A stretch of DNA of 24,446 nt from a virus. The position numbers and the translations under genes are program-made. Positions 2,334 to 23,446 of this stretch are shown here, in pieces. The stretch spans positions 1 through 24,446 of the IMG/VR virus record IMGVR_UViG_3300037488_000888. One strand, 5' to 3'. Numbering within the stretch: position 1 is the first letter of the stretch; each line of letters opens with the position of its first letter. A model generated the notes under the pieces. It was not told where the DNA came from. It ran no database searches and saw only the letters and a program-made list of their open reading frames with translations.

Positions 2334-4165
2334 GTTCCATCATTTACAATGCAGTCAGGGAAATCTTCCGCCCAACGCCTAAGCTTCAAGTAGAGGACTG
2401 GCTGCGGACGCATGTGAGGTTTGAGCGCGGGCCGATCCTTGGCGCATTTGATACTAAAAATTCTCCATGGATCAAGGAGCCGCTGACGCAGCTAAAGAAT
2501 CACGAAACACGGGAGATCATCTGCGCGTGTTCGGTGCAGTCAGCGAAGACCGCCCTGGCCGAAGGAGCCATGCTCTACTTAATAGCGGAGGAAGGCGGTG
2601 ACATGTGTCTGTACCTCCAAACCGACGAGCACGCGGACGAGTTCCTTGATACTCGGTTTAAACATCGGATTCTGGACTGCAAACCAGTCAACAAGCTGCT
2701 CGCTCGTGGGGACAAATCTATTCAGAAAAGGACGGTGGCATTCGCGCACATGACCCAGTACGTGATGGGGGCCAGCAACATCCACAACCTCCAGTCAAAA
2801 GCGGCGAAGTACGTGATTGGAGATGAGGCAGCTTACTGGCCACACGGGCACATCGACGAATCAAGGAAGCGCACAACATCTTTTGATGCGCGGAACAGTA
2901 AGCGTATCTACGTCTCTACGCCTATGAACAACTCGGGCGAGTTTTACGAGTCATTCATGGCTGGCTCATGCAGTGAATGGCAGGTGCGGTGCCCCGAATG
3001 TAACGAGCACTGGCCGATGGTCCTTTCACAATTGCGGTGGGATGGCGAAGGGTCCAAGATGGCAGACGGGAAGTACGACCTCGCTCGCATTCGGAATACC
3101 GTTCGTTACGAGTGTCCAGCCTGTCACGTCATGCTTAAGGACGATCCGAGAATAAGGAGGTCGATAGCAAACAGCGGATTTTACCTCAACCAGAACTCGG
3201 CACCAGACCCGCGCGTTAAATCCTATCACTGGAACGCGCTGACCGTGCCGTGGGTGTCATGGGACACAATAGCCAGCGAGTTTCTCAAGGCTGAATACTC
3301 ACGCAAACTAGGCGATTACTCGCCGCTGGCTGAGTTTGTGCGCAAGCGGCTGGGCGAGTTCTGGGATATGCGTGAGTTCCAGTCCGAAGAGGTCAATTTG
3401 TCGGGTTCCTTCGCTATGGAGGAGGAATGGGATCAAGAGTTTAGTCGATATATGAGCGTAGACGTGCAACGCGACTATTTCCGGGTAGTGGTGCGTTTAT
3501 GGGCTGAAAACGGCGATTCTCGGCTCTTTTACGCGGGGGAACTGCACACTTGGCAGCAATTAGTGGATTTACAGAAGAGGTTTAACATTAACGACAGTAG
3601 AGTTTTTGTTGATTGCGGTTTTGAACGCTATCAAGGTGAAGTTTATCGACAGTGCGCGGACAACCATTGGTGGGCAGTTAAAGGAGACAAAGCTCAATTT
3701 TTTACGTGGACAATCATGGATAAGAGAACTGGGCGCGCGCAACAAGTTAGAAGGCCCTACTCGCAGGTTCAATACATTGATTCTGGCGTAGGGCTTGCTC
3801 GATCAAAAGTAAGAGGAGCCAGAAAAGCAGATCTCGCTAAACGGATTGTAATGTGTTCTGATCCGATGAAGCAAATCCTGCATCGTTTACGCGCGGGACA
3901 GGGGGCATCATGGCAGGTCGCGAACAACGCTCCAAAGTACTATTATACAGAAATCCAGAACGAGGTCTTTGTTATTGAAAAAGATAAGAAAACCGGCAAA
4001 AACAAAAACTATTTCAAGAAACTGGGGCCAAACCATTCGTTTGACTGTGAAGGAATGCAAGTGATGGCGGCGTACATTGAAAAGCGGCTAGGTACGGCGG
4101 ACATATTTGAAACACCGTCGCCGAAAGCGCCACAAGCAATCGAGCAGTACGCTGTCAACGCTTGA
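2330..4165 (+). CDS. terL: terminase large subunit, GpA (lambda A) family
   Basis: This 611-residue protein has the order expected for the lambda gpA family. A deviant Walker A lies at about residues 67-74 (CSVQSAKT), and Walker B at 161-166 (YVIGDEA, with Asp165 and Glu166). Two Cys-x-x-Cys pairs (CPECNEHW and CPACHVML, about residues 220-260) look like a zinc knuckle. A C-terminal RNase H-like nuclease follows, with acidic candidates in MSVDVQRDYF, VFVDCGFERYQ and the final HSFDCEGMQV. The family packs DNA with ATP and cuts concatemers at cos ends. Part of the nuclease domain (about 3470-3830) is more AT-rich than the ATPase half. The stop codon TGA lies inside the TTGACA motif at 4162-4167 that serves the next gene. 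Confidence 0.93.
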   Translation: MSSIIYNAVREIFRPTPKLQVEDWLRTHVRFERGPILGAFDTKNSPWIKEPLTQLKNHETREIICACSVQSAKTALAEGAMLYLIAEEGGDMCLYLQTDEHADEFLDTRFKHRILDCKPVNKLLARGDKSIQKRTVAFAHMTQYVMGASNIHNLQSKAAKYVIGDEAAYWPHGHIDESRKRTTSFDARNSKRIYVSTPMNNSGEFYESFMAGSCSEWQVRCPECNEHWPMVLSQLRWDGEGSKMADGKYDLARIRNTVRYECPACHVMLKDDPRIRRSIANSGFYLNQNSAPDPRVKSYHWNALTVPWVSWDTIASEFLKAEYSRKLGDYSPLAEFVRKRLGEFWDMREFQSEEVNLSGSFAMEEEWDQEFSRYMSVDVQRDYFRVVVRLWAENGDSRLFYAGELHTWQQLVDLQKRFNINDSRVFVDCGFERYQGEVYRQCADNHWWAVKGDKAQFFTWTIMDKRTGRAQQVRRPYSQVQYIDSGVGLARSKVRGARKADLAKRIVMCSDPMKQILHRLRAGQGASWQVANNAPKYYYTEIQNEVFVIEKDKKTGKNKNYFKKLGPNHSFDCEGMQVMAAYIEKRLGTADIFETPSPKAPQAIEQYAVNA

Positions 4166-4168
4166 CAG
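4152..4168. promoter_or_regulatory. inverted repeat containing a TTGACA start-linked motif
   Basis: CTGTCAA (4152-4158) and TTGACAG (4162-4168) are perfect 7-base inverted arms around a CGC spacer, over the end of the terminase gene. The right arm is the TTGACA (4162-4167) whose first T is exactly 20 bases before the ATG at 4182. The symmetry could form a small hairpin or a protein site; only one other copy of the motif (11506) shows it. Confidence 0.5.
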
Positions 4169-4181
4169 AGAACCGGATTCT

Positions 4182-4457
4182 ATGGGCGGACCATCAATTT
4201 TACGTTATGCGTCATTGCAGTACTGCGAGACGCTTTATGAGCAGTGCCTCGCGGCGCTGGCTGATGGTCAGGGCACCATGGTCATATCGACCTCGGGCGG
4301 CGGTGAATCTGAAACGCGATCCAGCGGCAATGACGGTGGTATTCCGGTCATGACGCTGATGCGCGCAGTCATGCGACGGATGCACCAGCTCGATCCGGTC
4401 AAATATCCAGCCATCTCGAACCGACTTAAAGCAGATTTCAGCACACTCGTTCTATGA
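4182..4457 (+). CDS. small head-tail joining protein, gpW position
   Basis: I chose the ATG at 4182, giving 91 residues. An ATG at 4107 in the same frame would overlap the terminase gene by 59 bases. The TTGACA motif exactly 20 bases upstream decides it. The protein is helical at both ends (YASLQYCETLYEQCLAALAD and MTLMRAVMRRMHQL) with a polar, Gly/Ser-rich beta-like middle, which fits the helix-hairpin-helix plan of lambda gpW (68 residues). Its place between the large terminase and the portal is the conserved place of gpW-type joining proteins, which plug the portal after packaging. The gpW label rests on position and secondary-structure pattern rather than clear sequence identity. Its stop overlaps the portal ATG. 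Confidence 0.6.
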   Translation: MGGPSILRYASLQYCETLYEQCLAALADGQGTMVISTSGGGESETRSSGNDGGIPVMTLMRAVMRRMHQLDPVKYPAISNRLKADFSTLVL

Positions 4458-6106: not shown

Positions 6107-6108
6107 GA

Positions 6109-6114
6109 TTGACA
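6109..6114 (+). promoter_or_regulatory. TTGACA start-linked motif of the protease gene
   Basis: TTGACA, within the 11-mer TAAGATTGACA that begins with the portal stop codon. Its first T is 20 bases before the ATG at 6129. No -10-like box can be placed usefully, because 17 bases downstream falls on the start codon. Confidence 0.7.
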
Positions 6115-6128
6115 TTGCGGTGGCGAGT

Positions 6129-7040
6129 ATGCCAGTCACCGAAGAGCTTCAGACGTTCGCCGCATTTCAAGGAAAGGTTTCAGGAAACACCATCATGGGC
6201 GTTTCTTTGATTCAGGAAGGCCCGGCACTTGGTCACGGCGTGTTCGTGGATCGCAAGTCATTGGGTCAGTTCAAGGCTCTGGCGATGGCGAAGGGGCGGG
6301 TGAAGGCAAAGCTGAATCACTTCTCTTCTGTGCAGGACACGGTTGGATATTACGAGAATTTCCGGGTCAGCAAAGGCAAGCTCCTGGCCGATCTGACTCT
6401 ATTTGAAGCGCACGAAGGCAAGGACATGCTGCTCGAAATGATCAATGAAATTCCGGCAGCTTTTGGCGTTTCCTTGATGTTTGCGGCTGACTCTCCAGAA
6501 CTAGACAAGGAGAGCGGCAATTACATGACCCGCCCACGCGGCCTGTACTCGGCAGACTTTGTTGATACACCAGCCGCCAATGCAGATGGCGTGTTTTCGG
6601 CTGATCAGATTGACAGCGACGAACCTGTTATGGGTGACCCATCAATTCCGCCAGAAGATCCAAAGGCTGCCGAAGCTCCTTCCTTCGTTTCCGAATTTTC
6701 GGCACTGTCTGAAAAGATCGAACAATTGACCGCGCAGATGGCGGCCTACGAATCCAAGCTCGCGACCGAATGCGAGAAGATAGCCGCCGACATCAAGGCC
6801 TTTGCTGAAAAACCAGCGGCTGACGTTGAACTTCAAGCTCGCCTCGCTGCTGCTGCTCCTGCGCCGGCTGCCTTCTCCGCTCCAGTAAACGAGCAAGAAG
6901 TCGCTGCTCCAGTCATCGCTTTTACTGACGCCAAGAAAGCCGCTCTTGAAGGCAAGGTCGGACTGGAACGCATCAAGGCGGCCCGCGCTTTTTCTGAGAA
7001 GTTCCCTTCGGAAGCTTCTTACCTTTCCGCTCAATCCTAA
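6129..7040 (+). CDS. capsid maturation protease fused to scaffold
   Basis: The ATG at 6129 gives 303 residues. An in-frame ATG at 5979 would overlap the portal by 128 bases, and the TTGACA motif 20 bases upstream of 6129 supports the shorter form. Residues 1-155 resemble the herpesvirus-fold prohead proteases (S78/U35-like): VKAKLNH with His64, a LLADLTLFEAHEGKDML segment, FGVSLMF with Ser115, then a LYSADFVDTPAAN strand like the family's late conserved segment. Residues from about 168 onward are a scaffold: a coiled coil (SEKIEQLTAQMAAYESKLAT), an Ala/Pro linker and a short basic helix at the end. In this arrangement the protease is built into the procapsid and clears the scaffold. The catalytic residues are my assignment from the pattern. 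Confidence 0.8.
   Translation: MPVTEELQTFAAFQGKVSGNTIMGVSLIQEGPALGHGVFVDRKSLGQFKALAMAKGRVKAKLNHFSSVQDTVGYYENFRVSKGKLLADLTLFEAHEGKDMLLEMINEIPAAFGVSLMFAADSPELDKESGNYMTRPRGLYSADFVDTPAANADGVFSADQIDSDEPVMGDPSIPPEDPKAAEAPSFVSEFSALSEKIEQLTAQMAAYESKLATECEKIAADIKAFAEKPAADVELQARLAAAAPAPAAFSAPVNEQEVAAPVIAFTDAKKAALEGKVGLERIKAARAFSEKFPSEASYLSAQS
6610..6615 (+). promoter_or_regulatory. internal TTGACA start-linked motif inside the protease gene
   Basis: CAGATTGACAG lies inside the coding sequence, with the first T of TTGACA exactly 20 bases before an in-frame ATG at 6630. The spacing equals that of five ordinary gene starts in the window. Confidence 0.65.
6630..7040 (+). CDS. internally started scaffold protein (Nu3-like), in frame with the protease
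   Basis: An in-frame ATG at 6630, codon 168 of the protease gene, would make a 136-residue protein consisting only of the scaffold half. It contains a coiled coil at about residues 20-55, an Ala/Pro-rich linker around residues 70-90, and a final helical segment with GKVGLERIKAARAFSEKF. The start is preceded by TTGACA at the same 20-base distance seen at other starts. In lambda the scaffold Nu3 is translated from an internal start within gene C, and the domain boundary here falls in the matching place. That the internal start is used is inference; the motif, spacing and frame are seen directly. Confidence 0.6.
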   Translation: MGDPSIPPEDPKAAEAPSFVSEFSALSEKIEQLTAQMAAYESKLATECEKIAADIKAFAEKPAADVELQARLAAAAPAPAAFSAPVNEQEVAAPVIAFTDAKKAALEGKVGLERIKAARAFSEKFPSEASYLSAQS

Positions 7041-7058: not shown

Positions 7059-8000
7059 ATGGCCCAAGCTAACCTGCTCGACATCGCCAAGCTCAATGGC
7101 TCCGACACCATTGTCGGGCTCATCGAGGAAACCCTGACCTACGCTCCAGAGGTTCAGATCATGCCAGCCCGCACGATCCGCGGCACCTCGTACAAGATCG
7201 CTTCGCGCGTCTCGTATCCCGGTGTCGGCTTCCGTGCTGCTAACGAAGGCTCGACTCCAACCAAGTCCGAATTTGAGAATCAACTCATTGAGTGCTACAT
7301 CCTCAGCGGTGCAGTGCAGGCCGACGTTGCAGTCGCTCGCGCTTACGAAGACGGTGAGCAAGCGTGGAAAGACATCGAGTCGGTCGGTGTCATGCGTCAG
7401 GCGATGATCGAGCTGGGCTCCCAAGTCATCTACGGAACCAGCCATCAAGCGAAGGGCTTCCCTGGCCTGCAAGCAATTCACACCGCGTTCAACTCCGGCC
7501 TCGTGGTTGATGCTGGCGGAACCTCGGCTGGAACTGGCTCCTCGGTGTACGGCATCAACACCGACACCCAAGGCGTTCAGCTCGTCTTTGGTGCTGGTAC
7601 GACCTTTGAACTGGGTGAGTGGCGCATTGAGAACGTCGGCACCTCCTCGGTGTATCCTGCGCACGTCGCTAACTTGACCGCTTGGGTCGGGATGCAGGTC
7701 GGAAGCAAGTACAGCGTAGGCCGCCTTAAAGACGCAACCGCTGATTCTGGCATGGGTGTCACCGACGCCAAGCTGGCTGAACTCCTCAGCAAGTACCCAG
7801 TCGGCTACCGTCCGAATTACTGGCTCATGAACCGACGCTCTGCCTTCCAGTTGCAGGTCAGCCGCTCTGCAACCACCATTCAAAGCGGTGTCAAAACTTC
7901 AAGCGGTTCTGAGATCTTTGCTCCGCTGCCTACTGAGTCGAATGGCATCTCAATCGTTATCACCGACTCCATCCTCAACGATGAAGCTCTCACCGCCTAA
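7059..8000 (+). CDS. major capsid protein
   Basis: This 313-residue protein directly follows the protease/scaffold gene, where tailed phages place the HK97-fold shell protein. The sequence is regular and moderately hydrophobic. It has a helical N-terminus (LLDIAKLNGSDTIVGLIEE), an extended E-loop-like segment (TIRGTSYKIASRVSYPGVGF), a long central helix (AWKDIESVGVMRQAMIELGSQVIYG), a Gly/Thr-rich A-domain stretch around residues 150-200, and the NYWLMNRRSAFQLQVS strand-helix common in capsid A domains. No TTGACA is present. Instead the 18-base gap before the ATG holds a pyrimidine-rich TTTTTTCTTACTACC, so this abundantly needed gene appears to use a different start signal. Codon choice is strongly biased to C-ending codons, as expected for a highly expressed gene. 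Confidence 0.88.
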   Translation: MAQANLLDIAKLNGSDTIVGLIEETLTYAPEVQIMPARTIRGTSYKIASRVSYPGVGFRAANEGSTPTKSEFENQLIECYILSGAVQADVAVARAYEDGEQAWKDIESVGVMRQAMIELGSQVIYGTSHQAKGFPGLQAIHTAFNSGLVVDAGGTSAGTGSSVYGINTDTQGVQLVFGAGTTFELGEWRIENVGTSSVYPAHVANLTAWVGMQVGSKYSVGRLKDATADSGMGVTDAKLAELLSKYPVGYRPNYWLMNRRSAFQLQVSRSATTIQSGVKTSSGSEIFAPLPTESNGISIVITDSILNDEALTA

Positions 8001-9991: not shown

Positions 9992-9997
9992 TTGACA
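9992..9997 (+). promoter_or_regulatory. TTGACA start-linked motif of the tail tube gene
   Basis: TAAGATTGACA again starts with the stop codon of the previous gene; TTGACA begins exactly 20 bases before the ATG at 10012. The 11-mer is identical to that at 6104 and 16581. Confidence 0.7.
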
Positions 9998-10011
9998 CGC
10001 CCCCGATATTT

Positions 10012-10416
10012 ATGCCCGCCGTCGATGCACTCATTCAACACGGAAACATTCCTCTCTCCTCTTTAGAAGATGAGAGCAATGCCCTCACTCCAGACATTCT
10101 GGTTCAGTCTTTGACTATTACCGCCGCAAGGGATGAGAAGGCTTACCTGAACGCTGCTGGCGCGACCTTCGGGCTTGAGTACCGCAACCCGACGATTACC
10201 TTCGCGTTCGATGGTTACTTGTCCAACAAAACGCTTGGGTTGGCTAACAAGCACCCCGGAACTGCGGTGACCACGCTGGCCAACTTTACCGTTCTCACTT
10301 ACGGATTCGATCCGAATGACGGCACTATGATTTTCATGGACCCGAACCGCACGGAGACCAACACCGAGATGGCGAAAACAACCTTCTCAGTGAAGCAGTA
10401 CCCATTCGTCGTCTAA
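10012..10416 (+). CDS. probable major tail (tube) protein
   Basis: This 134-residue protein is preceded by the TTGACA motif and lies between the tail terminator candidate and the chaperone frameshift pair, where siphophages keep the tail tube protein. It is rich in Thr, Ala and Asn with clear beta alternation: ILVQSLTITAARDEKAYLNA, ATFGLEYRNPTITFAFDGYL, LANFTVLTYGFDPND, and KTTFSVKQYPFVV at the end. Tube proteins of this size form stacked hexameric beta-barrel rings. I see no extra Ig-like domain. The call rests on position, size and all-beta composition. Confidence 0.65.
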   Translation: MPAVDALIQHGNIPLSSLEDESNALTPDILVQSLTITAARDEKAYLNAAGATFGLEYRNPTITFAFDGYLSNKTLGLANKHPGTAVTTLANFTVLTYGFDPNDGTMIFMDPNRTETNTEMAKTTFSVKQYPFVV

Positions 10417-11269: not shown

Positions 11270-11514
11270 CTAGTCCGGTCTTTCAGGCGCACTACGTGTC
11301 ACTGGTGCGACCCATCACGGGTCTGACCGAACAGGAGATTCTGTGGGAGCTGCCACTTGCGCGCGGGCTCGCTTACCTGCACATGGCGCTCATCCAGCAG
11401 GGTATCGAAACCCAGTGGGTCGGTCATGACATGATGGAGGACGAAACCATCAAGAACGCCATGGATTACATCCAGCGGCGGAAGTCGAACCGCCTTGTCA
11501 ATGTATTGACATAA
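11263..11514 (+). CDS. T-like extension of the tail chaperone, made by -1 frameshift
   Basis: This frame has no plausible start of its own near its beginning: the only ATG upstream (11131) would give a basic, low-quality N-terminus read in the wrong frame of the G gene. Entered by a -1 slip at 11257-11263, it adds 83 residues to the first 149 of the G product, giving a 232-residue GT fusion. The extension begins ALASPVFQAHYVSLVRPITG and continues with helical segments (LTEQEILWELPLARGLAYLH and ETIKNAMDYIQRRK). It corresponds to the T domain that recruits tail tube subunits in lambda. Its last codons, TTG ACA TAA, contain the start-linked motif for the tape measure gene. Confidence 0.8.
   Translation, partial: ALASPVFQAHYVSLVRPITGLTEQEILWELPLARGLAYLHMALIQQGIETQWVGHDMMEDETIKNAMDYIQRRKSNRLVNVLT
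11496..11511. promoter_or_regulatory. TTGACA start-linked motif within an inverted repeat
   Basis: TGTCAA (11496-11501) and TTGACA (11506-11511) are perfect inverted arms around TGTA. The TTGACA begins 20 bases before the tape measure ATG at 11526 and lies in the last two sense codons of the T extension plus nothing of its stop. An AAAGGG at 11513-11518 is the only Shine-Dalgarno-like string near this start. Confidence 0.6.
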
Positions 11515-11525
11515 AGGGTGATTTC

Positions 11526-13298
11526 ATGGCTGCTACGCTAGACGCATCTCTTAGGCTCGATTCCAGTCAATTCACGGCTGGGCTTGGCAACGCAATGAAG
11601 AGCACCAACTCTGCGGTGTCGAAGATGTCGTCGGCGTTTGAAGCGTTGAAAAACATTGCGGTGGGTGGGGTGATTGGATCGACTTTTATGGAGGTGGCTA
11701 AAAGCGTCACCAATACCTACATTGAAGCGGAAAAACTCCAGAATGCACTAAAAGCCACAGCGGGCAGCGACATCCTTGGGATGCAGCAATATCAAGAGCT
11801 CAAAAGGCTCTCATCTGAAATTGGGTTAAACATGAGCGTTGCGGCAAAAGCAACACTTCAACTCCAAGCTGCGGGCATGAGTGCGGCTGACGCATTTAAG
11901 ACGATCAGAACACTTCAGAACGCGATCCGTTCTGGCGGTGGAGGAAATGAAGAGCTAGGCCGTTTCATCTACGGATTACAACAGCTTTACGCATCGCCTA
12001 AGCCGCTGGCCGAAGAACTTGGACAGTTGAAAGAAGCACTTCCGGTCACGGCCAAACTTTTACGTGAAGCGTTTGGATCGGCGAGGGCTGAGGACTTGCA
12101 GAAGCTCAACTTGAGCGGAAAGCAAGTGGCTGAGACATTGCTGAAAATGGCTGAGACAATGCCGAAAATGGCGCGCGGGCTAGGGGGCGAACTTGATGCG
12201 CTAAATGCAAAGTTTAACAATCTAAAGGAAACGATAGGTCAATCATCTTCTCAGATCTTAAAGCCAGCGGCCACTGGAACATCGTTTTTGCTAGACGTTC
12301 TTAATCTTTACCTGCAAATCAACAAGGCAGGCAAAGAGGCAAACGAGCTTAGATCAAATGGAGTTGATTTTGGCGTTGAAGAAGAAGACCAAAGAAAACT
12401 CCTTCGCGCATTAGAAACGCAAAAAAAGGTTGAAACAGACCGATTGAAAGCGACAGAAGAAAAAGCAAAACTGCAAGAGAAGCTCGATCAAGGGAACAAA
12501 GAGAATGCAGAGCTGGACCGTGCGCGCTGGCAATGGGAAGAGCAGTTCAAAAACGAGCAGCTCGCCAAGGACAAGCAAGCACAAGACGACGCCAAGAAGG
12601 CAGCCGATCAATCCATCTCGGATGCGAAGGAGCTACTAAGCCTGCACGAGGACACTGTACGCAAAATCAAAAGCGTACAGGAAGCCGTTTATTCGGCGCA
12701 GCAATCCATGGCCGGAACGGATGAAGAGAAGCTGGCCAATGCCAAAAAAGCACTGGAGGCAGAGGGCAATTTGCTGATGGGCGATGATCCTGGCGGATTC
12801 GATGCGCTAACCGAGTCGGCGTTCGAGGATGCGGTCAAAAACGGTCGCAATGTGACCGAAGGACAGGTTGAGCAGTACAACCGCATTATCGGGCTCAAGC
12901 AGGAGATTCTCGGTCTTGAGGAAAGTATTACACAGGAAGCCAAAAGCGGAGCGGCTGAACTGCGCGACCAGAACCGCGAAGCCGTTCAACGCTCAATCGA
13001 GAAGGCTGGCCGCACACCCGCCGAGAGAAAGCAGGAGATGCGGGACAATAACGACATGCAGCGGCAGCGCCGGCGCGCTTTTAATGATGACGTGCGGGAT
13101 GAGATGACCCGGCTGAAGAAGGAGGCTGAGAAAGCCAATGAAGGAAAACCAATCATGGAACGAGAAAGGACAGACCGAGAAGCCTTTAGGGATGCAGCAA
13201 GAGGAAACATCACAAGGAAATGGCAAAGCGCACTTCCTGAAGCCGCGCAAACATTGACCGACATCAAGGCCATCCTGAATAAACTCGCCACCGCCTAA
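11526..13298 (+). CDS. tail tape measure protein
   Basis: This is the longest protein in the window at 590 residues, and it follows the G/GT pair as expected. The N-terminal third has the pattern of the tape measure domain: LRLDSSQFTAGLGNAMKSTN, an ALKNIAVGGVIGSTFMEVAK segment, LSSEIGLNMSVAAKATLQLQ, and ALPVTAKLLREAFGSARAEDL. From about residue 270 it becomes long charged helices, rich in Lys, Glu, Gln and Ala, compatible with extended coiled coil, to the C-terminus. No lytic domain is visible. With the usual rule of thumb of about 0.15 nm per residue, tail length would be roughly 90 nm, which is short for a siphovirus. The TTGACA motif sits 20 bases before the ATG. Confidence 0.88.
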   Translation: MAATLDASLRLDSSQFTAGLGNAMKSTNSAVSKMSSAFEALKNIAVGGVIGSTFMEVAKSVTNTYIEAEKLQNALKATAGSDILGMQQYQELKRLSSEIGLNMSVAAKATLQLQAAGMSAADAFKTIRTLQNAIRSGGGGNEELGRFIYGLQQLYASPKPLAEELGQLKEALPVTAKLLREAFGSARAEDLQKLNLSGKQVAETLLKMAETMPKMARGLGGELDALNAKFNNLKETIGQSSSQILKPAATGTSFLLDVLNLYLQINKAGKEANELRSNGVDFGVEEEDQRKLLRALETQKKVETDRLKATEEKAKLQEKLDQGNKENAELDRARWQWEEQFKNEQLAKDKQAQDDAKKAADQSISDAKELLSLHEDTVRKIKSVQEAVYSAQQSMAGTDEEKLANAKKALEAEGNLLMGDDPGGFDALTESAFEDAVKNGRNVTEGQVEQYNRIIGLKQEILGLEESITQEAKSGAAELRDQNREAVQRSIEKAGRTPAERKQEMRDNNDMQRQRRRAFNDDVRDEMTRLKKEAEKANEGKPIMERERTDREAFRDAARGNITRKWQSALPEAAQTLTDIKAILNKLATA

Positions 13299-13943: not shown

Positions 13944-14822
13944 ATGCTGCCAGAACTCCCAGTCATCGACCCGAAGGTCAACGGCGCGCGCGCGGGCGGA
14001 CTGCTCAACCGGTTGGTGGATCGCATCAAGCTCCAGCGGCTTCTCAGCTCGGAAACGGTCATCATCACCGAGACCAAGGACGGGCAGATCATCGACCGGC
14101 TCGGCTCTGGCGGAGTGGCCGCTCTTTTCGCTCTAGGCTTCGCCGTGTCGCTCGACGGCACCAATGTGGTAGTCGCACCCGGCAGGCTGCTGTACCCGCT
14201 CTGGGGTGCCATTCTGGGCGATAATCCGACGCCGGGCGACTGGCAAAAGGAAGTCAATTACATCGGCGGCACCTTGACGGGCACGGTGACACAAGTCTGG
14301 CTCAGTGTACTATGGTCGGAAAGCGACACCACTACGACCGGGCCGCTCGGTACGACCACCTACAACATCTCTGGCGCGGCAGGCGGACGAGGCGGCGGCG
14401 GTGGTGGTGGTGGCGCGGCTGCGGGCTTGCAACCGGATATCCGTGGGACGGCGGGAGATGCGGGCGAGAATGGCGACGGGACTGGCCTAGGCGGTAACGG
14501 TGGCATCGTGCTCGACTACGACACCGACCCGCCGACGCCAGTGACCGGGCTTGGCAACAGCTACGGTGCCAGCGGGGGCGCCGGCGGTGTGGGTGGTGCT
14601 GGCGGCGCAGGTGGAAGCACTACCTTTACGCGCGCGACCAAGGCAACCGCGCAGATCCGTAAGTGGTCGATCAACGGGATCTCGCTACACACAGCAAAAG
14701 GCACTGCTAGTCAGGCGGCATCATGGATTCAACTGGCGACCATTAGCGGCACCAGCATCACGCAGCATGTGGCGGGCAGCATCTCAATCACGCCCCCGGC
14801 CATCACTTTCATTATCGCCTGA
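13944..14822 (+). CDS. glycine-rich tail adhesin-like protein, paralogue 1
   Basis: First of three tandem paralogues, 292 residues. The N-terminal part (about 1-55) has a helix (GLLNRLVDRIKLQRLLS) and a strand with the shared ET..G element (VIITETKDGQII). A beta middle follows to about residue 143. Residues 144-225 are very rich in Gly (a run of eight, then NGDGTGLGGNGG and GGAGGVGGAGGAGG), compatible with polyglycine II helices. The C-terminal domain (237-290) begins QIRKWSING and holds the shared ITQHVAGSISI and final PAITFI. The glycine block resembles that of known phage adhesins with polyglycine sandwiches, but identity is inference. Its TGA overlaps the ATG of paralogue 2. Confidence 0.7.
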   Translation: MLPELPVIDPKVNGARAGGLLNRLVDRIKLQRLLSSETVIITETKDGQIIDRLGSGGVAALFALGFAVSLDGTNVVVAPGRLLYPLWGAILGDNPTPGDWQKEVNYIGGTLTGTVTQVWLSVLWSESDTTTTGPLGTTTYNISGAAGGRGGGGGGGGAAAGLQPDIRGTAGDAGENGDGTGLGGNGGIVLDYDTDPPTPVTGLGNSYGASGGAGGVGGAGGAGGSTTFTRATKATAQIRKWSINGISLHTAKGTASQAASWIQLATISGTSITQHVAGSISITPPAITFIIA

Positions 14823-15715
14823 TGCTGCCAGACATTCCAAACTTCAACCTGGGCGACGTGTACGTCTTGACCGGCAAAACGCTCGAAAAGATCGTGCGGC
14901 GGATCAAGATGCAGAAGCCAATCGAAGGTGCCAACATCCGGCTGGAAGAGACGAATGCGGGTATCCTGCTACATGCCGACCAGCAGGTGCAGGTGGCGCC
15001 AACGGTCGCAATCAATCACGACTTCAAGGCAACGTCACCCGCATTCAACACGCTGGACATCGCTGCTGGCAAAGTCTACGGCATCGAGTGGGGCACGCCA
15101 AGTATGAGCAACCCGCTGCCGACAAACTGGCTGGCGCAGCAGGCGAGTATCGGGCTGACCACTCTTTCGGTTCCGTCTGGCAGTAGCGTGTGGCTACGCA
15201 TCCAGCTCTCACAGACCGACGTAAACATGAGCGGCGCGCTCTCAGCTACGGGAGCGACAACGCTATCGGTCACGACCGGGGGCGGAGGTGCGGGTGGTGA
15301 CGGTGGCGGCGGTGGAGCCGGGGGAGATGGCACAGCCGGCTATGCTGGTGCTGCGGGTGAAGCTGCATCCGGCCAGACTGCCGGAGATCCGGGGACAGGC
15401 ACCCTGGGCGGAAGTAACGGGAACGAGAACTCAGGCACAGCAGCGGAAGGTGGGGACGGCGGAGATGGTGCTGCGGGTGGCGACGGACAGGTCAAATCGT
15501 TTACGCACTACACAACCCTGCTGATGGTGTTTCGTCGCTGGCAGGTCACGTCTGCCAGTCTTGTCGTCTCAGCCAGCAAGCCAACCGCATCGCCTGCCAG
15601 CAACATCTACATTCGGATCGCGTCTCAGACTGACGGAGTGGTCACACAGTACCACGCAGGCTCTTATCACATCACGCTGCCAGCAGCTACCTTTATCAGC
15701 TCCTTTGTTCCCTGA
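14822..15715 (+). CDS. glycine-rich tail adhesin-like protein, paralogue 2
   Basis: The middle paralogue has 297 residues and starts on the last base of the previous stop. It has the clearest N-terminal domain of the three: MLPDIPNFNL, then a GKTLEKIVRRIKMQKPIEGA helix and IRLEETNAGILL. The glycine-rich block (about 153-222) is more varied, with many Gly-Asp, Gly-Ala and Gly-Gly pairs. The C-terminal domain starts at VFRRWQVTSASLVV and ends YHAGSYHITLPAATF. These blocks align with those of its neighbours, which shows tandem duplication followed by strong divergence. It is likely a tail fibre or tip component exposed on the virion; the ligand is unknown. Confidence 0.7.
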   Translation: MLPDIPNFNLGDVYVLTGKTLEKIVRRIKMQKPIEGANIRLEETNAGILLHADQQVQVAPTVAINHDFKATSPAFNTLDIAAGKVYGIEWGTPSMSNPLPTNWLAQQASIGLTTLSVPSGSSVWLRIQLSQTDVNMSGALSATGATTLSVTTGGGGAGGDGGGGGAGGDGTAGYAGAAGEAASGQTAGDPGTGTLGGSNGNENSGTAAEGGDGGDGAAGGDGQVKSFTHYTTLLMVFRRWQVTSASLVVSASKPTASPASNIYIRIASQTDGVVTQYHAGSYHITLPAATFISSFVP

Positions 15716-16583
15716 TTTTCCCAACTTCTTCGGCAACCTGCATTATTTCCTCAAGGGAAAGACGCTGGCCATGTTTCGCAAGGCCATTTATGAGCAGATG
15801 CCGATTGCTGGCAACGGTATCACTCTGCAAGAGACCGACGACGGCATCATCGTTTCAAGCAAGCAAGGCAAAGCGACGGCCACTTCCAGCGTTATCGACT
15901 TCACCGGCATTCTGTCCGGCGAGAACGTCGTCATTCAAGGCGGCAAAGTGCTGGGAGTCTCGTGGAGCACGTACACGCCAAACAACCCTAGCAGCGGCGG
16001 GTGGACTGAGACGGTGGCGACGGTAGCAGGCACAACTCTTGCAGTGGCCACCGGTTTCACGATCTGGCTCAAGATCACATTTGTACCGACAACAAACCCG
16101 GTGGTAGGCGCACTCTCATCGGCTGATCAAGAGACTTTGACCGTGGTTGGTGGGACGGGCGGTGGAGGCGGAGGTGGCGGCGGAGGTGCTGCGGGTGGCA
16201 GGACGACCGGCGGTGACGGAGTGAATGGCACAGTCGGAGCCAACGGCACAGCCGGCACTCCTGGAGCAGGTGGTGCAGGCGGAGCGGCGGGAACAAATTC
16301 GCCAAGTTCCGGCGGACTAGAGGAGGGCGGAAACGGCGGATCTGGTGGCTACGGCGAAGGAGGCGACACAGGCCTAGAGGTGTTTTTTCAAAACTACGCC
16401 AAGGCCGCAGCACAGATTCGGCGGTGGACGGTATCCGCTGCGGTGCTGGAGGTGCACTCGTCGGCGCCAGCGGCAAGCGCGACAGTGGCATATCTGCCGA
16501 TGTTGAGCCGATCCGGATCGACCATCACGCACCACCAAGTCGGCAGCGTGTTTATCAGCCTGCCAAGCGTGACCTTCATCTAA
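15705..16583 (+). CDS. glycine-rich tail adhesin-like protein, paralogue 3 (TTG start)
   Basis: There is no ATG where the paralogue should begin. A TTG at 15705 gives an N-terminus FPDFPNFFGNLHYFLKGKTL that aligns with LPDIPNFNLGDVYVLTGKTL of paralogue 2, so I take it as the start (292 residues, 11-base overlap with the previous gene). An ATG at 15770 within KTLAM would remove the conserved segment. The helix and ITLQETDDGIIVS element follow, then a beta middle, a glycine-rich block (about residues 150-225, with ten Gly in a row near its start), and the C-terminal QIRRWTVSAAVLEVHSS ... ITHHQVGSVFISLPSVTFI domain. The function is as for its neighbours. Confidence 0.68.
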   Translation: MFPDFPNFFGNLHYFLKGKTLAMFRKAIYEQMPIAGNGITLQETDDGIIVSSKQGKATATSSVIDFTGILSGENVVIQGGKVLGVSWSTYTPNNPSSGGWTETVATVAGTTLAVATGFTIWLKITFVPTTNPVVGALSSADQETLTVVGGTGGGGGGGGGGAAGGRTTGGDGVNGTVGANGTAGTPGAGGAGGAAGTNSPSSGGLEEGGNGGSGGYGEGGDTGLEVFFQNYAKAAAQIRRWTVSAAVLEVHSSAPAASATVAYLPMLSRSGSTITHHQVGSVFISLPSVTFI

Positions 16584-16585
16584 GA

Positions 16586-16591
16586 TTGACA
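16586..16591 (+). promoter_or_regulatory. TTGACA start-linked motif upstream of a tail gene pair
   Basis: Third identical copy of TAAGATTGACA, beginning with the stop of the third glycine-rich gene; TTGACA starts 20 bases before the ATG at 16606. Confidence 0.7.
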
Positions 16592-16605
16592 CAACCCCGC
16601 ATTTT

Positions 16606-17358
16606 ATGCCGAACATCTTCGCGTTGACGCTGAAAGCGCAAAACAGTTATCCGGGCAACTCGGTCATTCCCTCCGCAACTCAGCAGGTGCCGGACTTGAT
16701 CGTTCGTGAGGAAAGTTTGATCTCTGGCGTGTTCGAGGTGTTTGGGAATAGCACAACCTCAACCAACTCTCTGGCCACCAGCGGCACGACGGTCAACTCA
16801 GTCCTGGCCGGTGGAAGCGCAATTGCTCTGACTAACCCTATCACGAATGCGACCTTGGCATTCAACTACTGGCGCGGGCTTTACATCACGGTCACGCAGC
16901 GTGACCCATTAGTGGAACCTGCTTCGGTGCGTCCTACAGCAACATCCACAACTTCGCTCCTGATCGAGGTCGCGTCTAAAGCCTTCACTGTTGCGGCGTC
17001 ACTTGGCTACGTGGTGGGGATGCGAGTACGTGCAACATCCGCAGCCAACGCGGCCAACTTCATGGAAGGCACGGTAACAAGCTATGCAACCACAGTCTTG
17101 ACTGTTGCGGTCGATACGATTGGCGGCACTGGCACTCTGGCCGACTGGACGATCACCGGCCTGATCTGCGCGCAGATCCAGAGCAACGGGTTTGGCGGGG
17201 TGGTTACCAATACTGTCGTTCCGCTGCCAATCTACGAAGGCGGCTCGTTCATTTACAGCACACCGACAGGCCGCAAGTCAGCAACCACTCAAACGCTGAC
17301 CATCCTCCTTAACGGCACAACCGGTCTTAACGTCAACGTGTTGGTTTTAGGCTCCTAA
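16606..17358 (+). CDS. tail protein with inserted beta module, paralogue A
   Basis: This 250-residue protein is all-beta by pattern and a paralogue of the next gene. The N-termini match (MPNIFALTLKAQNSYPGNSV against MPSTFKLSTLLQNSYAASAV), as do the C-termini (GGSFIYSTPTGRKSATTQTL against GGVLNIYNPSAGNSVATTDV). Unlike its partner it holds an extra module at about residues 108-184, with the hallmarks of a module common in phage tail proteins: KAFTVAASLGYVVGMRVRA, then FMEGTVTSYATTVLTVAV and GTGTLADWTITG. A virion surface role near the tail tip is likely. I do not know its ligand. Confidence 0.65.
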   Translation: MPNIFALTLKAQNSYPGNSVIPSATQQVPDLIVREESLISGVFEVFGNSTTSTNSLATSGTTVNSVLAGGSAIALTNPITNATLAFNYWRGLYITVTQRDPLVEPASVRPTATSTTSLLIEVASKAFTVAASLGYVVGMRVRATSAANAANFMEGTVTSYATTVLTVAVDTIGGTGTLADWTITGLICAQIQSNGFGGVVTNTVVPLPIYEGGSFIYSTPTGRKSATTQTLTILLNGTTGLNVNVLVLGS

Positions 17359-17945: not shown

Positions 17946-18233
17946 ATGAATCCCACACAACTGGAAGAACTAGAGGAGCGGCTGCGAGACTTGAATCTCG
18001 TGGTCAAAGTCGGCCAAGGGCTGCTGTTCGGCGCTTTTGGTCTGGGTGTCTGGGTTACTACGATCCAGATCAAGATCAATTCGCACGATCAAAAGGTGGA
18101 CGAGGCATCAAAGCTGCGGACTGCGGATGTGGCAGCTATCCGGGCGCTGGAGCTGAAGGATAGCGCAGACACGCAACTGCTCCGATCGATAGTGGAGAAG
18201 CTCGACAAAATTGACAGGAAGCTGAATCCGTAA
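17946..18233 (+). CDS. small membrane protein with coiled coil, inner spanin candidate
   Basis: The ATG at 17946 gives 95 residues; earlier in-frame starts run through the tRNA-like element. A charged helix (residues 4-17) is followed by one membrane segment at 22-41 (VGQGLLFGAFGLGVWVTTIQ) and then a long heptad-like helix to the end (43-93), rich in Lys, Asp, Ala and Leu. One membrane span followed by a coiled coil is the plan of inner-membrane spanins (Rz-type) and is also seen in some XhlA-like holin partners. With a lipoprotein gene nearby, the spanin reading is attractive but unproven. The last codons include ATTGACAGG, 22 bases before the next ATG. Confidence 0.6.
   Translation: MNPTQLEELEERLRDLNLVVKVGQGLLFGAFGLGVWVTTIQIKINSHDQKVDEASKLRTADVAAIRALELKDSADTQLLRSIVEKLDKIDRKLNP
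18211..18216 (+). promoter_or_regulatory. TTGACA motif upstream of the holin candidate (22-base spacing)
   Basis: TTGACA inside AAATTGACAGG, in the coding end of the previous gene. Its first T is 22 bases before the ATG at 18233, two more than the usual distance. Confidence 0.4.
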
Positions 18234-19718: not shown

Positions 19719-20272
19719 CTCGAACAATCTCACTCTCTGAATCGACCGCTGACCTCGGAATGCTGCCGGTGTTCTCGACGACGCCGCTCCTAATCACGGG
19801 CGCAGTTCCAGCCGCTCCCGCAATGTCGCAATGGGTGCTCGAACTCTGGAAGCGCCAGAATGACGCCAGAGAGGTGGGAGCAACTCCGCTGGCATCATCG
19901 GCTGGGTATGTGGCTGGAGGTGCCGTCACGTTCGTTCTGACGGCGGCACAGATGGATCTGGTGCTTTCGGACGAGATCAACAGTAACAACTACTGGATCG
20001 CCATCGGCGGGCTCGACAGCAACGGTTTCCCTTACCTGCTGAGATCCGGCAATATCGAGGTTATCCCGTCTGGCTTGTCGCTGACACCGACAACCACCAT
20101 CGCCTTTTCAGTGGTCAACGAGGTTGTCTCGTTTGCCTACAACGGAGCAATCTACCGCTTTGATGCGGTGACCGACACGCCACCGGGGCCGATTGACGGA
20201 AGCGTTGTGGTTATTGATGGGATGATCGTCGTCACCGTTGACGGCGTTTCCTATTCCGTTCCAGCCGTATGA
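19715..20272 (+). CDS. probable baseplate / upper tail-fibre protein
   Basis: The ATG at 19715, in an ATGA overlap with the endolysin stop, gives 185 residues. The protein has beta stretches and short helices: ISLSESTADLGMLPVF, MSQWVLELWKRQND, VTFVLTAAQMDLVLSDEI, and ISNS-like and GFPYLLRSGNIEVIPSG segments. The last 40 residues contain Gly/Asp-rich turns (DTPPGPIDGSVVVIDG) ending in a small beta hairpin. Similar small N-terminal beta domains occur in upper baseplate proteins (BppU type) of siphophages, which carry fibres, but this match is only by pattern. It leads straight into the fibre gene. Confidence 0.58.
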   Translation: MTRTISLSESTADLGMLPVFSTTPLLITGAVPAAPAMSQWVLELWKRQNDAREVGATPLASSAGYVAGGAVTFVLTAAQMDLVLSDEINSNNYWIAIGGLDSNGFPYLLRSGNIEVIPSGLSLTPTTTIAFSVVNEVVSFAYNGAIYRFDAVTDTPPGPIDGSVVVIDGMIVVTVDGVSYSVPAV

Positions 20273-21996
20273 GTGCCGTTACTACGCCAAGAAATGTTTC
20301 CCTGATTCAACGCGACGCCTCCGGAGACAATCAATGGATTGATCTGCTAGGGACGGCCAACACGAACAAGGCGATTGGGTTCAATGGGTCGGGCGTGATT
20401 ACTACGCTTTCGGCGGCGCTTGTGGGAACGGCCAACACCTTCACCACTGACCAGACGATTCAAGGCAAGCTGACGGTGCGTGCGGTAGTTGGCACGGATG
20501 TGAGTGTGGCGGCTTCTGCTATCGACTGGGCGACGAGCACGAGCTTTTACAAAACGCTAGCGGCAAACACGACTTTCACATTCGCCAACGCGCTACCGGG
20601 TCAAGGGATCACGGTTGCAATTACCAACACGAGCGGCAACTACATCGTCACGTGGCCGGGGACAATCAAATGGCCGAACGACTCAATCCCGGTGCAAAGC
20701 ATCGGTGCGAGGACGGATGTTTACTCATTCCGCAACATCAATGGCATCGTCTATGGTGCGGTCGCGCAGAGCGCCGGCGGAACTGAATCATTCGCTAACA
20801 CGCAGGCGCGCTTGGCGTCGGTTCCTTACAAGCTCGGCCTGATCGGTGTGCAGGTCGATACGCTGGAGGTCTGGGTTTCTGTCGGGCTCACGGCTGGCGA
20901 CTGGCAGATGATCAGCGGTGCCGGTGGAGTGCCACCATCGCACACGCATTCGTTTTCTGAGGTGCATTCGCTCCCAACGGTGGCACCGTCACTGACCGAC
21001 ACAATCGGCATTCCCCTGGGCGATGCAGGAGGTTCTCTCTCGCACTGGGCATCAATCAATCTCCTGCTGGATCTAGCGCGGGTGCCGCGTTCTGGGCGCG
21101 ACACGCTGCTCTCTCTTAATGATGCAGGCGTTACTCTCACGGATGCGCAGATCGTCGCAATCAACACGTTCTACCAGTACGTGGACGCCATGGGCATGAT
21201 CAGCGGCAATACCAGCCGATCACGCTTGATGCTGCCAGTCTGGGCAAACAACATGCAAGCCAACCTGCTGGACTGGCTGCACCCGGCAAGCTCTAGCCGA
21301 CCATTCATTCGCAACGCATCCACGGGTGCAAACAATGCTGGTGACTTCACACAGCCGGGCGGGTACATCGCGCCAACCGGAATTGCAAACTCCGGCATGA
21401 TCGACTTTGACTCAACCGTGGCACAAGTATGGGAAGAAACGGATTATTCCTTAACCTACTATTCGCACTCGCCACCGCTGACGGACGACAACACGATGAT
21501 CGGAGCGCGGAACGATACCGTGTCGGGCGGAACCAACAGGTGGTTCACCACATCACGCAGCACGACCACGCCGGGAGTGTTCCGGGCAGCGGTCGGATCG
21601 ACCGGCGGGAGTTTGCATGTGAACTTGGGTCTGCCAGAACTTTATGTGGGTGGAACGGTTGGCGCACTCAATCCGCTGGGCTTGATTCACTTTGCTCGCA
21701 AGGGCACTTTATTCAGCACCCGGCGGCGTTTAGCGGCAGGCATTATAGACACGACGGATTTGACGACCTCAAACGTCAACGCAAACGCGACGATCAGGGA
21801 CAACAAGCTGGGCGGGTTTCTCTTTTACAACGGCAACACAACCGGCAGCCTACTCGGTCCGGGTGGCATCCTGCACAACCAGCCTTCGTCTCTCTTCTAT
21901 CTTGGCCGGGCCATTGGTACTACTGGCGCGGCAACGGATACTTTCTCTTTGATGCTTTTCAATCTGGCCATTGCAATGGGGGCTCCTTCAGTATGA
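20269..21996 (+). CDS. tail fibre protein
   Basis: This 575-residue protein overlaps its neighbours by ATGA at both ends. Its N-terminal third has repeated short strands typical of phage fibres: an ANTNKAIGFNGSGVITTLSA segment, LTVRAVVGTDVSV, ALPGQGITVAITNTSGNYIV, and WPGTIKWPN. The middle (about residues 180-245) includes LGLIGVQVDTLEVWVSVGLT and a short Gly-rich linker. The C-terminal half looks like a jelly-roll sugar-binding or carbohydrate-acting module, with a YYSHSPPLTDDNTMIGARND stretch and several Trp and Tyr. No catalytic signature is evident. It is likely a host-binding fibre, co-expressed with the phosphodiesterase gene that follows. Confidence 0.7.
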   Translation: MSAVTTPRNVSLIQRDASGDNQWIDLLGTANTNKAIGFNGSGVITTLSAALVGTANTFTTDQTIQGKLTVRAVVGTDVSVAASAIDWATSTSFYKTLAANTTFTFANALPGQGITVAITNTSGNYIVTWPGTIKWPNDSIPVQSIGARTDVYSFRNINGIVYGAVAQSAGGTESFANTQARLASVPYKLGLIGVQVDTLEVWVSVGLTAGDWQMISGAGGVPPSHTHSFSEVHSLPTVAPSLTDTIGIPLGDAGGSLSHWASINLLLDLARVPRSGRDTLLSLNDAGVTLTDAQIVAINTFYQYVDAMGMISGNTSRSRLMLPVWANNMQANLLDWLHPASSSRPFIRNASTGANNAGDFTQPGGYIAPTGIANSGMIDFDSTVAQVWEETDYSLTYYSHSPPLTDDNTMIGARNDTVSGGTNRWFTTSRSTTTPGVFRAAVGSTGGSLHVNLGLPELYVGGTVGALNPLGLIHFARKGTLFSTRRRLAAGIIDTTDLTTSNVNANATIRDNKLGGFLFYNGNTTGSLLGPGGILHNQPSSLFYLGRAIGTTGAATDTFSLMLFNLAIAMGAPSV

Positions 21997-23171
21997 ACAA
22001 CCGCGAACCATATCTTGCCGAACTTCGCTCACATCGTGGCAACCTTTTAGGTCAGCCAGAACACACCGTGCAGAGCTACACGGCAGTCTCTAAGGCGGGA
22101 GCCGCGATGATCGAGCTTGACCTGCATCTGACATCTGACGGCGTGCCGGTCTGTATCCACGATGCAACGGTGGATCGCACGACCAACGGAACAGGAACGG
22201 TGGTGAGCAAAACGCTGGCACAGATCAAGGCGCTGGACGCGGGCGTTGACTTCGGGCCATCATATGCTGGGCAACAGGTGCCGACGCTGGTGGAGGCATT
22301 GCTGGCGATTAAACCGTATCGCGTGCGGGTCATGATCGAGCCGAAGGTCGGCGGCACAGAGAACGCCATGCTGAACGCGATGCAGCAAGCGGGATTCCCA
22401 CTGGAGCGCGTGACATTGCTGGCCGGTCTCTTCTTCCCGTCGGTGACTGCCGCGACCATGCGGCCATACTTTCCAACGGTGCCGATCTACTGGATCGCGA
22501 CGGGGCCGCCATCGGCGATTGGTGAGACCGCGCTTGTGGCTTTCAAAAACCAAGGATACGACGGCATCTCATACTGGCCTCCTGCTGGTGGAGCGGTATG
22601 GGGGCCAGAAGAGACCGCGCTAATGCAAAGGCTCAGTCTTGGCTATGCGCGGTACGGATTGGCTGGCGGGGCATCTGAGATCTTTGGCAGCGGCGCGAAT
22701 GTTTACCTAACCGACGACCCGACAACGGCGGTCTCAACCGTGGCCACCGCCAACTTCACCGCATTCAAGGCAGCTTATGCAATCACGGTTGGCAGTGACG
22801 GCCTGTACAACGATCCGGATGGCGACGGCTTCACGAACTTTGAAGAGATGATCTATGGGGGAAACCCGATGTCGTCGCGCAGGCTTCCAGCGACAGGCCC
22901 GTCAGTGCAGATCGTGGAAGCGGGTGGAGTGCGGACGGCATTCCTGACAGCCACACCAGCCGCCACCAGAATGTTCGTCACTTGGTACTTCGCTCCTCAG
23001 TGGAGCGACGACGGCATCACATGGACGGACGTGCCAAGCACTTCGTTCACCGCTCTCAATGATGGGTATCCTCGGGACTTGAGTCACCGGTTTGTGGTCG
23101 ATATGGGGCCGGTGCTGCCAACCAACACGAAGCGGGTGCGGCTCTATCCGAAGCTGTTCCCAATGCCTTAA
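21993..23171 (+). CDS. tail-associated glycerophosphodiester phosphodiesterase
   Basis: The ATG at 21993 overlaps the fibre stop (ATGA), giving 392 residues. The GDPD active-site set is present: HRG at 14-16 (His14, Arg15), EHT at 23-25 where the family has Glu-Asn-Thr, IELDLHLTSDGVPVCIHD with Glu41, Asp43 and His56, and IEPK with Glu115 and Lys117. A canonical calcium loop, DPDGDGFTNFEE (273-284), follows the catalytic domain, and a beta domain of about 100 residues ends the protein. GDPD enzymes break glycerophosphodiester bonds, and as tail parts can cut polyglycerol-phosphate polymers or other cell-surface phosphodiesters. The Asn-to-His change in the EHT motif is unusual. The true substrate is unknown. 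Confidence 0.85.
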   Translation: MNNREPYLAELRSHRGNLLGQPEHTVQSYTAVSKAGAAMIELDLHLTSDGVPVCIHDATVDRTTNGTGTVVSKTLAQIKALDAGVDFGPSYAGQQVPTLVEALLAIKPYRVRVMIEPKVGGTENAMLNAMQQAGFPLERVTLLAGLFFPSVTAATMRPYFPTVPIYWIATGPPSAIGETALVAFKNQGYDGISYWPPAGGAVWGPEETALMQRLSLGYARYGLAGGASEIFGSGANVYLTDDPTTAVSTVATANFTAFKAAYAITVGSDGLYNDPDGDGFTNFEEMIYGGNPMSSRRLPATGPSVQIVEAGGVRTAFLTATPAATRMFVTWYFAPQWSDDGITWTDVPSTSFTALNDGYPRDLSHRFVVDMGPVLPTNTKRVRLYPKLFPMP

Positions 23172-23178
23172 CCTCCGA

Positions 23179-23184
23179 TTGACA
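23179..23184 (+). promoter_or_regulatory. TTGACA motif upstream of the 80-residue tail gene (25-base spacing)
   Basis: CGATTGACATC lies in the 32-base gap after the phosphodiesterase gene. Its first T is 25 bases before the ATG at 23204, a longer spacing than the other copies. Confidence 0.4.
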
Positions 23185-23203
23185 TCCCGCACGCAATTAA
23201 GCC

Positions 23204-23446
23204 ATGGCCACACAAACCTTCAGCCTCGCAGCAGGCGCAACGAGCGCGTCCTTGACGGTCACGCCCAACACCATCTACGGCATCGAGACAACCCTGCCGG
23301 TGTACGTGTTTGCCACCAATGGCGCGCTCATTGCTGAGATGGGCACCAAGGATGCAATCAACATCATCCCGACCAACACGCCGATCACGATCAAGGCAAA
23401 GGACTCGAACACCGCGACCTGCACGGGCACAGTAGTTGGCGCTTAA
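23204..23446 (+). CDS. small beta-rich hypothetical tail protein
   Basis: An 80-residue protein is set off from the phosphodiesterase by a 32-base gap holding a TTGACA motif. It is Thr-rich with alternating strands: ATQTFSLAAGATSASLTVT, NTIYGIETTLPVYVFATNGA, and INIIPTNTPITIKAKDSNTA. It has no charge clusters, membrane span or Cys pair beyond one Cys. The pattern suits a small beta-sandwich or a fibre-capping protein. I do not recognise a family. Confidence 0.6.
   Translation: MATQTFSLAAGATSASLTVTPNTIYGIETTLPVYVFATNGALIAEMGTKDAINIIPTNTPITIKAKDSNTATCTGTVVGA

Follow-up and report, generated by a model that had tools for sequence, protein, structure and literature searches.

Does the head maturation protease gene of this phage contain a second, nested gene for a free scaffold protein and, if so, what marks its start? 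The question arises in an IMG/VR virus record of 24,446 bases (the whole stretch analysed, referred to here as the window), in which terminase, portal, protease, capsid and tail genes follow each other in a lambda-like order. Judging from the sequence comparisons presented below, the locus probably holds a nested scaffold gene whose own start carries an initiation element independent of Shine-Dalgarno (SD) pairing, a reading to which we assign a probability of roughly 0.78.

The protease/scaffold locus is flanked by genes for a portal (PF05136) and a capsid protein (PF20911). The window protease matches the head maturation protease phrog_976 weakly (6e-4), and members of its family match the PHROG head maturation protease phrog_15531 at 1.2e-12. 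Pfam gave no match to the window protein, and a PDB sequence search with it returned coiled coils and chaperones only, with poor E-values. Elsewhere in the window, three adjacent genes with glycine-rich middles (13944–16583) look like tandem paralogues, and at 20269–23171 the end of a tail gene overlaps, in an ATGA, with a frame lying downstream that resembles glycerophosphodiester phosphodiesterase; in relatives G003 and G009 this place is taken by a single long ORF (1145 and 978 aa, respectively).

The earlier note had placed a TTGACA inside the protease gene with an in-frame ATG 20 bases on, and this description was exact: TTGACA occupies positions 6610–6615 and ATG positions 6630–6632, separated by a 14-nt gap and lying in the protease frame, and the ATG is codon 168 of 303, opening an ORF of 136 residues. 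The hexamer alone is at chance in the window (12 found, 13.2 expected). Combined with a start codon at this distance, as TTGACA-N14-ATG, it is found at six places where 0.25 would be expected; all six are on the + (coding) strand, and none of the shuffles reached this number; four of the six sites extend to GATTGACA. No TTGACA motif was found at the start of the window major capsid gene (7059). Extra copies of TTGACA stand before starts at N16 and N19 (18211–18233 and 23179–23204). Coordinates of the sites and of the protease locus are collected in the table.

Table. Motif sites, genes and predicted protein regions in the window
Feature	Position	Strand	Remarks
TTGACA-N14-ATG, start of 91-aa gene before portal	4162..4184	+	
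GATTGACA motif of full-length protease start	6107..6114	+	TTGACA at 6109, 14 nt before ATG 6129
Head maturation protease with fused C-terminal scaffold, 303 aa	6129..7040	+	ORF start ATG 6129
Predicted protease domain, residues 20–155	6186..6593	+	model and fold search
GATTGACA internal start-associated motif	6608..6615	+	in frame: CAG ATT GAC A (Q-I-D-S)
Putative nested scaffold ORF, 136 aa	6630..7040	+	in-frame start Met168, codon 168/303
Predicted long scaffold helix, residues 186–242	6684..6854	+	model
Predicted C-terminal helices, residues 265–301, probable capsid-binding tail	6921..7031	+	model
Major capsid protein	7059..8000	+	directly 3′ of protease; PF20911 1.7e-10, phrog_212
TTGACA-N14-ATG, start of 134-aa gene	9992..10014	+	
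TTGACA-N14-ATG, start of 590-aa gene (tape-measure position)	11506..11528	+	
TTGACA-N14-ATG, start of 250-aa gene	16586..16608	+	

A structure model of the protein was built from an alignment of 25 diverse members (mean pLDDT 75; an alignment of close relatives gave pLDDT 46). In this model Met168 lies in a disordered linker (residues 161–182, pLDDT <50) between the protease domain and the long helix, which bears out the suggestion that the internal start falls just past the one and before the other. The scaffold tail resembles the GL-R-V-AA of standalone scaffolds, but the profile match of the C-terminal region to these scaffolds is weak. H64 and S115, invariant in the alignment of 25 members, are by conservation the candidate catalytic His and Ser. 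The modelled protease domain matched 5jbl (Foldseek E 1.4e-4), T4 gp21 (VIA Z 10.8, rmsd 3.4, 131 residues aligned) and herpesvirus proteases (Z 6–8). According to the model, the window protease is of the T4 gp21/herpesvirus assemblin fold.

Close relatives gathered by protein search comprised 38 distinct complete genes with 68–100% identity; one of the six query peptides contained Met168, and queries from the protein start only gave essentially the same relatives. All 38 have the same internal GATTGACA, followed by the ATG after the same 14-nt gap, as the earlier note had expected of Met168 and its motif. Met168 is invariant amid variable residues: positions 164, 166, 167 and those from 169 onward differ, with DEPV, EEND, DEDV or EEID between motif and Met168, and GDPS, PTEQ or PIDP after it. 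When synonymous entropy was compared over 192 conserved degenerate codons, its minimum for the gene fell on codons 159–162, that is, on the motif, with Ile161 always ATT and Asp162 always GAC (38/38 each). The motif at the full-length protease start is kept in relatives as well. Ten relatives of 32–40 kb have 5–6 TTGACA-N14-ATG sites each, all in the same late genes and none beyond; thus, even in genomes of this length the motif is not a general start signal. The scaffold region itself comes in two types, 39–47% identical and mosaic with internal recombination (L014 5960–6355 and L013 5025–5432 compared with L015 7058–7465), next to a protease part that is about 90% identical or more.

Two further genes were reached via a capsid profile search. 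In L164 (70% N-terminal identity) an upstream codon is deleted and the N14 spacing is still kept. L171, with a protease domain 37% identical to that of the window (58/158 residues), retains TTGACA-N14-ATG, its motif encoding Val-Asp-Thr versus Ile-Asp-Ser in the window (Ile to Val, Ser to Thr). Joint loss of Met168 and TTGACA from a gene that keeps the scaffold domain, named beforehand as an outcome that would speak against an internal start, is found in none of the close relatives, and several very distant ones do not show it either.

A motif-blind profile, made from residues 1–150 only, gave about 70 further loci, which were compared as 21 protease clusters. The nested ORF, 3′-coterminal with the protease ORF in the window, is conserved as a feature across these clusters, and in 20 of the 21 an in-frame ATG lies at most 45 codons past the end of the protease domain. 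TTGAC stands at N12–18 before this boundary ATG in 11 clusters, in eight of them at exactly N14, versus 1 of the 97 in-frame ATGs elsewhere in these ORFs (Fisher P-value 2e-9, which overstates independence because the clusters are related by descent). The [VIF]-D ahead of the start is coded xTT GAC in 11/11 clusters, versus 14/97 elsewhere, indicating that the nucleotides rather than the peptide are conserved; L262 has a second V-D that is otherwise coded, and with it counted as a miss P stays at 6e-9.

The boundary is also found without the motif. L234, L200, L194 and L218 keep the boundary Met and have no TTGAC, L231 has the fused domain with neither boundary Met nor motif, and the clusters without TTGAC other than L231 have the boundary Met behind other leaders. 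As a mark of the internal start, TTGACA therefore holds for close and some distant relatives and not for more distant clades, and the nested start appears to be the broader feature, of which TTGACA is one mark.

In sister phages whose capsids are related, the protease is a different one, which by eye looks S49-like, and the scaffold has an ORF of its own (about 134–177 aa) ahead of the capsid gene. The separate scaffold gene of L174 lies directly behind the stop of the different protease and starts at TTGACA-N13-ATG. In Mu-I-like sisters (L179–L190) and in Akkermansia phage Chantilly the scaffold is fused, with a Met at the boundary behind A/C-rich leaders, and at starts of the isolate phages P8625 and Chantilly no TTGACA-N14-ATG was seen. 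In the early region of the 40 kb relative G003 (L137), early genes lie behind A/C-rich leaders with neither SD nor TTGACA; early and late genes may be set apart by two kinds of SD-less start.

We then asked what kind of signal the motif is. Over 21 contigs, TTGACA occurs 114 times on the + (coding) strand and 19 times on the – strand, and at N13–17 before ORF-opening ATGs 67 times and once, respectively; since the contigs were chosen for carrying the protease family, and several for carrying the motif, these counts describe rather than test, the test being the boundary-ATG comparison across clusters. No SD sequence (a purine-rich GGAG/GAGG-like core 5–17 nt before ATG) is present at 6630, and SD-like 4-mers are found at only 4 of 27 starts. 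Folding of the mRNA around the six TTGACA-N14-ATG starts revealed nothing unusual, the local mRNA not being unusually open. A hairpin TGTCAA-N3/4-TTGACA, with TTGACA as the right arm, can be drawn at 4152–4168 and 11495–11512, and orthologous starts in L164 and G009 have the same pairing ahead of them.

Capsid, terminase and portal all suggest phages of Verrucomicrobiota, and the host is probably a member of this phylum, which has SD-scarce members (PMC10783764). A search of genome contigs for the host with the protease profile gave no relative, and the strict motif TAAGATTGACA-N14-ATGAAA had 36 matches in bacterial genomes, about the number expected by chance and in no particular clade.

We propose that ORF 6129–7040 codes for two 3′-coterminal proteins. 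Late mRNA read from ATG 6129 would give a scaffold fused behind a protease of the T4 gp21/assemblin fold, and ribosomes initiating separately at ATG 6630, within the disordered linker, would give the 136-residue scaffold alone. Initiation at 6630 would be directed by GAUUGACA, a UUGACA core 13–17 nt (here 14) upstream of the AUG, acting on the mRNA without SD pairing and marking other late-gene starts in this and related phages. Free scaffold, presumably in excess, would template the procapsid, a few protease-scaffold molecules would co-assemble with many free scaffolds, and the protease would later degrade the scaffold; this stoichiometry and assembly role are suggested by analogy with lambda, Mu and herpesviruses. 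What the comparisons of relatives support is the first step, the internal element with its start: the sequences, the constraint on them, the layout of the domains and the association of the motif with starts are all observed. We infer that ribosomes initiate at 6630, that the short product serves as the scaffold, and that the ribosome or a factor reads the element in RNA.

Alternatively, the motif could be a binding or cleavage site in late mRNA, recognised by a small RNA, an RNA-binding protein or an RNase, with initiation affected only indirectly. Confinement of the motif to a fixed set of late genes would suit such a site, as would the hairpin possible at two of the six window sites. We nevertheless consider it unlikely, since the N13–17 spacing peak over unrelated genes fits placement of an initiating ribosome better, and no candidate recognising factor was found among the ten genes scanned.

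In phage P2 gpO, the scaffold is released by proteolysis of a fused protein, and the same could be imagined here, with the scaffold freed in this way only and Met168 and the motif being incidental. The linker holding Met168, disordered in the model, would be easily cut, and the fused domain of L231, with no boundary Met, would be accommodated. Yet the invariant Met168, the fixed silent codon sites, the constant 14-nt spacing and the standalone scaffold genes of sister phages would all be left unexplained, which makes this account quite improbable.

TTGACA is also the sigma-70 –35 consensus, and could belong to an internal promoter giving a scaffold transcript, as for herpesvirus UL26.5. We rejected this very doubtful reading for want of a –10 box: the best matches to TATAAT at the six window sites reach only 1–3 of 6, and matches at N15–19 over the 67 sites are no better than at control offsets. 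The transcription start would also fall inside the gene, past the ATG. A conserved [IVF]-D peptide closing the protease domain, with an incidental Met, hardly deserves credence and was likewise rejected: Ile/Val/Phe-Asp does recur across clusters, but the silent sites are fixed in 38/38 genes, and xTT GAC is the spelling in 11/11 clusters at the boundary versus 14/97 elsewhere. With the conserved-protein account failing the codon test and the promoter account lacking a –10 box, the earlier suggestion that the motif acts on translation has comparative support; strand bias, spacing, absence of a –10 box and rarity of SD sequences fit an initiation element read in mRNA.

How does this nested scaffold gene compare with known systems? 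Given the T4 gp21/assemblin fold predicted for the protease, herpesvirus UL26/UL26.5 is the nearer counterpart in this respect: there, a protease of related fold is fused to a scaffold and a nested in-frame scaffold product is made. UL26.5, however, is made from its own transcript, whereas the evidence here favours internal translation. Phage Mu I/Z likewise joins a protease to a helical scaffold, with an internal Met where the two meet; the Mu-I-like proteases share these features and differ in having A/C-rich leaders instead of TTGACA and in belonging to another protease family. In lambda, C and Nu3 are nested between the portal and capsid genes, and the C protease is of the S49/ClpP type. 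The parallel with lambda drawn in the earlier note holds for the arrangement, a scaffold from an in-frame internal start in a protease gene between portal and capsid; it does not extend to the predicted fold, which is that of T4 gp21/assemblin rather than of lambda C, or to the start element, TTGACA at –20 rather than an SD. Nu3 is the scaffold that acts with C in lambda (PMC3224144).

The start-associated sequence (SAS) of cluster K mycobacteriophages is a short asymmetric repeat found at a fixed distance before phage starts, with a proposed role in translation (PMC3203893). It is 13 bp long, has the consensus GGGATAGGAGCCC, lies 3–7 bp from the start, partly pairs with 16S rRNA and is found at non-structural genes (PMC3203893). 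Both are phage start motifs at a fixed distance with a proposed translation role. The motif described here differs in being 6–8 nt long (GATTGACA, not GGGATAGGAGCCC), in lying 13–17 nt away with no SD, and in standing at structural genes, with one site inside a gene. In the part of the literature covered, we found no description of TTGACA as a start-associated element.

How SD-poor bacteria (Bacteroidota, some Verrucomicrobiota) choose start codons is a long-standing question. Tentatively, and with somewhat less than even confidence, UUGAC(A) 13–17 nt before AUG may be an undescribed SD-independent initiation element that many phages infecting SD-poor freshwater bacteria (probably Verrucomicrobiota) have in common. 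Their hosts may perhaps use it too, and it would be strong enough to initiate translation within a gene even during read-through of that gene. Neither a gene boundary nor a stop codon or an intergenic leader can account for the in-frame copy; the internal site is thus a clean test case, in which silent mutations would separate protein from RNA function. Recognition of the element would also make gene calling more accurate in a large group of uncultured phages, where the scaffold protein is otherwise overlooked.
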